From: an uncultured Erythrobacter sp.
GTDB taxonomy: Bacteria > Pseudomonadota > Alphaproteobacteria > Sphingomonadales > Sphingomonadaceae
NCBI GenBank assembly: GCA_913055155.1
Contig: CAJXJR010000009.1
Span: forward strand, 62,001 to 126,000
DNA: 64,000 bases
Reading direction: 5' to 3'
Under the pieces are notes generated by a model. The model was not told the origin of the DNA, made no database searches, and saw nothing but the letters and a program-made list of their open reading frames with translations. Position numbers and translations under genes: made by a program. Below are positions 14,175-15,592 of this stretch, piece after piece (the first letter of the stretch is position 1; every line of letters begins with the position of its first letter).

Positions 14175-14546
14175 TTAGGCCACTTTGCGCACTTTCAGCC
14201 ATGCGGCGACGAACAGCGCGGCAAACAGCAGGTCCACCGCCCCGCCCAGCGCCATGTCGTCCGCCGCCTGTCCCTGCGACCAGAAGGCCAGCGCAGGCAC
14301 GCCGAAGCTCACCTTCTCGAACACGGTCAGCGGCAGGAAGGCGGCGTAGCGCAGCGGATCGCGCGCTATCACCAGGAACACGCCCTGGAACACCAGCGCG
14401 ATGCCGGCGAAGGCGAAATACAGCAGCCGGTGCGGATCGGGCGCGTCGGTGAAATAGAGCATGGGCACGGCGAGAAAGCCGTAGATAGCGGCGACCAGGT
14501 AGACCCGGCGGACGAAGGTTGCTGCGGATTGGGCGGTATCAGGCAA
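14175..14546 (-). CDS. Small four-helix membrane protein of unknown function
   Basis: 123 residues, four hydrophobic segments (about residues 15-33, 40-60, 67-88 and 98-117) joined by short loops. I do not recognise a named family. The probable start is TTG at 14546, just overlapping the end of the broken dprA reading frame, so it seems to be the next gene in the plsY-dprA transcription unit. The alternative is an internal ATG at residue 29, which would remove the first helix. Its reading frame is intact although the neighbour upstream is not. Confidence 0.55.
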   Translation of the reverse strand: MPDTAQSAATFVRRVYLVAAIYGFLAVPMLYFTDAPDPHRLLYFAFAGIALVFQGVFLVIARDPLRYAAFLPLTVFEKVSFGVPALAFWSQGQAADDMALGGAVDLLFAALFVAAWLKVRKVA

Positions 14547-14984
14547 GGCTCACTCTTCCCCCGGCGTGGCGTTCCAGCCGGCCGGCGATTTCCAGTTCCA
14601 GCAGCGCCATCTGCACCGCGCCCGGCGTGGTACCTGTCTGGCGCACCAGTTCGTCCACGGCAACCGGCGCGCTGGAAAGGATGGCCGCCACTTCATCGGC
14701 GGGCAGGTCCTGGTCGGCATCGTCGTACACGAAATGCTCGGGCAGTTCCTGCACGTGGGAGCGCGGGCTGCCTGCACTTCGGCCTCTACCCGCTGGCGCG
14801 GCGCGGGCTTGTAGTTTCGCTTGGCCCCGCGTGCGGCAAGGTCGGGCAGCGCCTCAACCGCGTCCTGCGCAGTGCCGAAACGACGCAGCAGCTGGGCATA
14901 GCTGACAGGGCCGATATTGGCCGAGCGCAGCAAGCGGATACGGGCAAAGGCCTCTTCCTGGGTGAGCGTGGGCGCGTCGGTCAC
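14539..14984 (-). pseudogene. dprA: dprA remnant: central DNA-binding fold deleted, ends out of frame
   Basis: DprA loads RecA on incoming single-stranded DNA and is usually about 360 residues. Here the first ~74 codons (GTG at 14984, ending near 14763) encode an intact N-terminal SAM-like region containing LLRSANIGPVSYAQLLRRFG and KPAPRQRVEAEV. They are followed at once by the last ~72 codons in a different frame (14754 to 14539: QELPEHFVYDDADQ ... AGRLERHAGGRVSLA), the DprA winged-helix tail. The whole Rossmann-like core, normally 200 or more codons with the GxRxxS/T and GIDxxAH-type motifs, is absent. The start GTG overlaps the plsY stop (GTGA). It reads as an internal deletion with a frameshift, so it is non-functional unless this is an assembly error. 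Confidence 0.85.
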
Positions 14985-15592
14985 TTGCCCTGCCCGACCT
15001 TCGGCTCCTCACCCCGCAGTAGCCTGCCGATGTTGGCTCGGTGCAGCCACAGCACCAGCACGGCGATGGCCGCCGTTACCGGAACGTAGGCTTCCAGCCC
15101 CAGTGCCGCCGCAGCGATGCTGGCTGCGATCACCGCGCTCATCCCCGCCAGCGAGCTGATGCGCGAAAGGTAGACGATGGCGATCCAGATAACCGCATAG
15201 GTAAGGCCGATCGGCCAGGCGAGGCCGAAGGCGACCCCGGCATTGGTAGCCACGCCCTTGCCGCCCTTGAACTTCAGCCAGACGGGGAAGCAATGCCCCA
15301 GCACCGCGCCCAGAGCGGCAAGCGGCACCGGGCCATAGGCAGCTTCCGGCATGGTGGCCGGCGCATCGAACAGCGCCTTCGCCAGCAGCACCGGCACCAG
15401 CCCCTTGGCCAGGTCCAGCACCAGCGTCGCCGCCGCCAGCTTCTTCGATCCCGTGCGCAGCACGTTGGTGGCGCCGATATTGCCGCTGCCGATAGTGCGG
15501 ATATCGCCCATGCCGCCCGCCTTGGCCAGCAACAGGCCGAAAGGGATCGAGCCGCAGGCATATCCCAGCAGGAATCCGAGAACTTGTTCCAT
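14981..15592 (-). CDS. plsY: Glycerol-3-phosphate acyltransferase PlsY
   Basis: 203-residue inner-membrane enzyme that transfers acyl from acyl-phosphate to glycerol 3-phosphate, the first step of phospholipid synthesis. The three PlsY motifs are clear: GSIPFG with GSGNIGATNVLR (about residues 14-47), GHCFPVWLKFKGGKGVAT (about residues 103-120), and the last-loop LHRANIGRLLRG. About five hydrophobic segments. ATG at 15592. Its TGA overlaps the start of the dprA remnant, so the original order plsY-dprA, usual in alphaproteobacteria, is kept. Confidence 0.95.
   Translation of the reverse strand: MEQVLGFLLGYACGSIPFGLLLAKAGGMGDIRTIGSGNIGATNVLRTGSKKLAAATLVLDLAKGLVPVLLAKALFDAPATMPEAAYGPVPLAALGAVLGHCFPVWLKFKGGKGVATNAGVAFGLAWPIGLTYAVIWIAIVYLSRISSLAGMSAVIAASIAAAALGLEAYVPVTAAIAVLVLWLHRANIGRLLRGEEPKVGQGK

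Follow-up and report, generated by a model that had tools for sequence, protein, structure and literature searches.

In DprA proteins, the Rossmann-fold core deals with single-stranded DNA and with the loading of RecA, and ComM is the helicase of the recombination step. In published accounts, DprA is described as shielding incoming single strands and recruiting RecA, with ComM aiding recombination (PMC11472951). DprA can have three domains, SAM/HHH-like, Rossmann, and winged helix; in Riemerella, inactivation of dprA abolished transformation and the Rossmann domain was held to be essential (PMC6533540). DprA, ComEC, ComF, and ComM serve the uptake of gene transfer agent DNA in Rhodobacter capsulatus (PMC10883770), and the alphaproteobacterium Liberibacter crescens takes up DNA by means of a Tad pilus (PMC8513845).

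Natural damage to this pathway has been described in Haemophilus influenzae, Acinetobacter baumannii, and Piscirickettsia salmonis, where, as at the locus studied here, single transformation genes are inactivated and others are kept (PMC2689351, PMC11472951, PMC12955456). As described there, comM and pilD were hit by frameshift in Haemophilus (PMC2689351), comM was largely hit by mobile elements in Acinetobacter (PMC11472951), and comEC was hit by transposable elements in Piscirickettsia, with dprA intact (PMC12955456). A comM frameshift has not kept one H. influenzae strain from transforming better than the strains closest to it (PMC2689351), and transformation is still measurable in Acinetobacter strains without ComM (PMC11472951). 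Our literature search found no transformation report for Erythrobacter or the Sphingomonadales among the matches listed.

The Erythrobacter locus differs from these cases in that dprA itself is hit and that both dprA and comM carry plain deletions. Compared with a three-domain DprA, the remnant still has its two outer domains and its position after plsY, but the Rossmann core is missing and the frame is broken; it is no longer a DprA.

The two ends of dprA adjoin in different frames

The source genome (G000) comprises 3.10 Mb in 21 contigs and is rated 100% complete. Within it we analyzed a stretch of 64,000 nucleotides (the window). The minus strand carries, in order, plsY, the dprA remnant, a small membrane-protein open reading frame (ORF), a further ORF that matches GPDPase_memb, and topA. 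The features of the locus are listed below.

14981..15592, minus strand: plsY, glycerol-3-phosphate acyltransferase, intact, upstream of the dprA remnant (PF02660, 177.7 bits)
14767..14984, minus strand: dprA 5' remnant of about 73 codons, GTG start at 14984 (PF21102; alignment with whole dprA of relatives)
14766..14767, minus strand: junction of the dprA deletion, 655 bp or about 218 codons, comprising the whole PF02481 match (pairwise alignments)
14539..14766, minus strand: dprA 3' remnant, winged helix, in another frame (PF17782; alignment with relatives)
14550..14984, minus strand: 144-amino-acid open frame that starts at the GTG of the 5' remnant and runs from DprA_N into about 71 residues out of frame (ORF list)
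14175..14546, minus strand: membrane-protein ORF, open, downstream neighbor of the dprA remnant (ORF list)

The original prediction held that only the two ends of dprA are left here, joined out of frame between intact neighbors, and this was confirmed. The 5' remnant matched DprA_N (PF21102) over 64 of 64 model positions at 88.2 bits (cut-off, 22), so this domain is complete. DprA_WH (PF17782) matched the ORF at 14754-14539 over model positions 8 to 61 of 61 at 63.7 bits (cut-off, 22.9), and the stop of this 3' remnant is the same stop as in the dprA genes of relatives. The distance between the two frames, 14984-14754, is 230, which is not divisible by 3. The 144-residue frame had PF21102 as its sole Pfam match at E values up to 1, and this match covered only its first half. 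The GTGA overlap expected between plsY and dprA is in place, shared by the plsY stop and the dprA start codon. At the other side, the TTG start of the membrane-protein ORF overlaps the dprA end. This ORF has a BphX match under the cut-off and is kept at the same place in several relatives; it is not in G001 and lies 680 bp further on in G017.

The predicted loss of the central core, put at 200 or more codons, was likewise confirmed. The Rossmann core profile (PF02481) matched nowhere in the 3.10 Mb of the genome, the two remnant frames included. When the full-length DprA of relative G033 was searched against this genome, only residues 1 to 85 and 297 to 373 were matched, both at this locus. 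Thus, these profile and full-length searches found no second dprA, nor did they locate the lost core at any other place in the genome. From the sequence, loss of the core together with the frameshift means that neither a full DprA nor a shortened in-frame version can be made, and DprA function should be gone without the core.

Compared with its relatives, dprA lacks 655 bp spanning the core

Nine relatives from the same genus, each with a whole dprA directly behind plsY, were aligned pairwise with the locus. A net gap of 655 bp was found against all nine, which supplied the intact genes and the deletion end points that the original prediction had called for. In eight the gap was single; in the G018 alignment, the aligner split it into 358 and 297 bp. 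G017 differs by another 680 bp past the dprA stop. A multiple alignment of the locus was also made, in which four of ten relatives tried were kept by an ORF filter. Six of the nine pairwise alignments put the junction at 14767/14766, and the other three put it at 14764-14758. Since 655 leaves a remainder of 1 on division by three, the deletion is out of frame, which accounts for the offset of 230 between the remnants.

Computed against G033, the deletion begins at most a base or two from where the PF02481 match starts and extends about 15 codons past the end of that match. The deletion therefore takes the core almost exactly, which we regard as chance. By eye, the two sides of the junction agree at few bases, if any.

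The remnants show no clear decay

The remnants had been described as still well conserved. All ten genomes aligned over 66 and 70 codons, and at the sites where the nine relatives agree we counted differences private to this genome. The counts are small: 1 of 50 in the N-terminal part and 0 of 40 in the C-terminal part. Put through the same test, the relatives each had 0 of 49 in the N-terminal part and 0 to 3 of 40 to 43 in the C-terminal part, seven of the nine being at 0. For plsY, this genome had 4 private differences at 121 sites, and the relatives had 0 to 3 at 117 to 120. The conservation claim thus holds. With near relatives at roughly 80 to 85% DNA identity over most aligned segments, remnants without clear decay point to a loss that is probably recent, little time having passed relative to that divergence, or else to an assembly error.

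comM carries a second frameshifting deletion

A search for comM elsewhere in the genome, proposed along with the original prediction, found the gene broken.

G000 contig C4:107616-109009 (locus L160): comM, lacking 67 bp near model position 47 and so put out of frame (TIGR00368 and alignment)

TIGR00368 matched here in two pieces, model positions 2 to 47 and 65 to 499, in different frames. The 67-bp gap was found against all three relatives compared (G033, G013, and G012), and three or four identical bases were seen by eye at the junction. The remainder of comM is not decayed, with 8 private residues of 391, compared with 4, 7, and 9 of 387 to 392 in the relatives.

Uptake genes are damaged in several places across the genus

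We surveyed 40 genomes of the genus, this one included. PF02481 matched in 37, and in 35 of these the match ran in one frame over almost the full model; the exceptions were G006, in two frames, and G020, cut by contig ends. No match was found in this genome, G004, or G062. The last two were not counted as further losses: plsY was also without a match in both (G004 is 69% complete), so the dprA locus seems to be absent from the assemblies. The dprA of G020 runs over two contig ends (L184, L189), and G020 was not counted as a proven loss either; it has no comEC match and is rated 99% complete. In G006 (L162), a frameshift in the middle of the core splits dprA. The frameshift may be genuine or may stem from a sequencing error, and the comM of G006 is unsplit.

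comM formed one full stretch in 35 of the 40 genomes, the exceptions being this genome, G010, G027, G029, and G032. G027 is a 70%-complete assembly that is itself in pieces. In G029 (L165/L164) and G010 (L169/L168), comM is cut at the Walker A codons, with the shared bases AACCT seen by eye. The two halves in G029 are about 103 kb apart, and an ORF of 536 amino acids that by eye looks like a large serine recombinase starts about 60 bases inside the left junction. In G010, where the halves lie on two contigs, the end sequences are like those of G029 and the same ORF start is found. comM is likely a site-specific island target in these two genomes. In G032 (L170), the same Walker A place is cut by about 1.1 kb with an ORF of 312 amino acids, creatininase-like by eye. 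An island insertion of the kind in G029 and G010 was rejected for the comM of our genome, which has a 67-bp deletion at a different place.

The search for comEC called for by the original prediction found it present here and open over 776 amino acids with a PF03772 match; it was found in 38 of the 40 genomes, the exceptions being G004 and G020. A comF-like match lies in an open frame of 219 amino acids, under the family cut-off, as in all 40 genomes. ComEA (TIGR00426) exceeded the curated cut-off in none of the 40, with weak matches in 4, and PilT (TIGR01420) in none, with weak matches in all 40. GTA_TIM (PF13547), the one gene transfer agent marker used, matched in none of the 40; a control search with it found the Caulobacter vibrioides gene. 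Loss of gene transfer agent reception was dropped as the main story on these grounds, a single marker having been searched. Damage to dprA, comM, and comEC is scattered over the genus.

dprA is very probably a young pseudogene

We have high confidence that this genome's dprA is a pseudogene of recent origin; this confidence attaches to the pseudogene and not to the reason for it. A single internal deletion of 655 bp removed the Rossmann core and shifted the frame, leaving plsY and the downstream ORF untouched, and comM carries an independent frameshifting deletion of 67 bp. The recombination arm of DNA uptake would thereby be weakened or disabled, with the ComEC channel and the ComF-like protein left. 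The reason would most likely be that selection for this arm lapsed in the lineage. The best reading is a recent loss of function in the recombination arm of DNA uptake, in a species represented in our comparison by one strain.

The breaks might instead be real but mean little for competence, dprA having been lost by chance in a genus in which comM breaks are common. This overlaps with the preferred explanation, which concerns the pseudogene. We consider it possible, if rather unlikely. Since 5 of the 40 genomes have no comM in one stretch, the double hit in dprA and comM is suggestive only, and the frameshifted dprA of G006 stands beside a comM in one stretch. comEC and the comF-like gene are open here, the Haemophilus comM-frameshift strain still transforms well (PMC2689351), and Acinetobacter without ComM does so at rates still measurable (PMC11472951). 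Against this, the damage in this genome falls on two genes of the same pathway, and the sampled regions show few other breaks, if any.

An assembly error is less probable still. On this account, dprA is whole in the strain, and 655 bp of it, as well as 67 bp of comM, went missing during assembly. Remnants without clear decay would look the same after a very recent deletion, and the genome is a draft of 21 contigs. However, the dprA junction lies inside a contig of 158 kb, and the 14-base flanks of the deletion ends, which alone were compared, have no long repeat in common. It would also be a coincidence for two such errors to strike the same pathway, one in each of two genes.

Two controls bear on the assembly. 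In the first, 51 frames of G033 were sought in the window and flagged if absent, partly covered, or with a stop. Unbroken frames numbered 33 and flagged frames 18; in the four frames with stops that we inspected, the stops precede likely starts, and two weak stop-bearing frames (+38974_39429 and -81131_81496) stand outside this inspection. The second control used frames conserved between G033 and G013 in the 64-kb window plus 100 kb around comM (164 kb). Of 106 such frames, 75 were unbroken here, 14 had no counterpart, and 17 were flagged, among which dprA and comM were the only clear breaks. By codon-position pattern, the other 15 (stops inspected for 14) comprised five shadow frames, two unclear frames (+52238_52540 and -110111_110734), and eight coding frames. 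Four of the eight had a stop in the first 35 aligned residues, one had a stop near the C-terminal end, and three were short (+10452_11045, -94894_95292, and +105361_105735). The early stop lies just before a plausible methionine start in three of the four; for the fourth (+36898_38250), the start is presumed from decarboxylase sequences. Because the three short frames and the two without a clear coding signature are left, the background of broken genes may exceed zero. A generally poor assembly is unlikely, since the flagged frames are mostly explained and 75 conserved frames in the two regions are unbroken.

That the remnants work as separate small proteins, one DprA_N and one winged helix, is hardly credible: both domains match well and are conserved and the winged-helix piece has an in-frame GTG of its own, but by eye no clear ribosome-binding site precedes this GTG, the N-terminal product must carry about 71 out-of-frame residues, recency explains the conservation, and none of the 37 other genus genomes with PF02481 has such an arrangement.

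What the loss means for DNA uptake

The original prediction went on to suggest that this lineage lost competence recently. This is only partly supported. The recent loss of dprA and the broken comM fit it, but the lineage need not have been competent before: ComEA and PilT had no match over the cut-off in any of the 40 genomes (weak matches in 4 and in all 40), comEC and the comF-like gene are open here, in Rhodobacter capsulatus the proteins of this set serve gene transfer agent DNA (PMC10883770), and comM loss in other bacteria does not always abolish transformation. From the loss of dprA, we infer that natural transformation may have ended. A tentative further idea, to which we give little weight, is that DNA import was recently uncoupled from recombination, ComEC and the ComF-like protein being kept and DprA and ComM lost. 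If so, DNA brought into the cell would be a nutrient or go to waste rather than supply genes.

The dprA loss is ordinary pseudogenization, a known process caught early. It offers a clean and young natural loss of the RecA loader and the ComM helicase in an alphaproteobacterium whose relatives keep both. Most of the genus keeps dprA and comM, and the literature matches listed contained no report of transformation for it. Comparing recombination in this lineage with that in its sisters would bear on whether dprA and comM matter for gene exchange in the genus.
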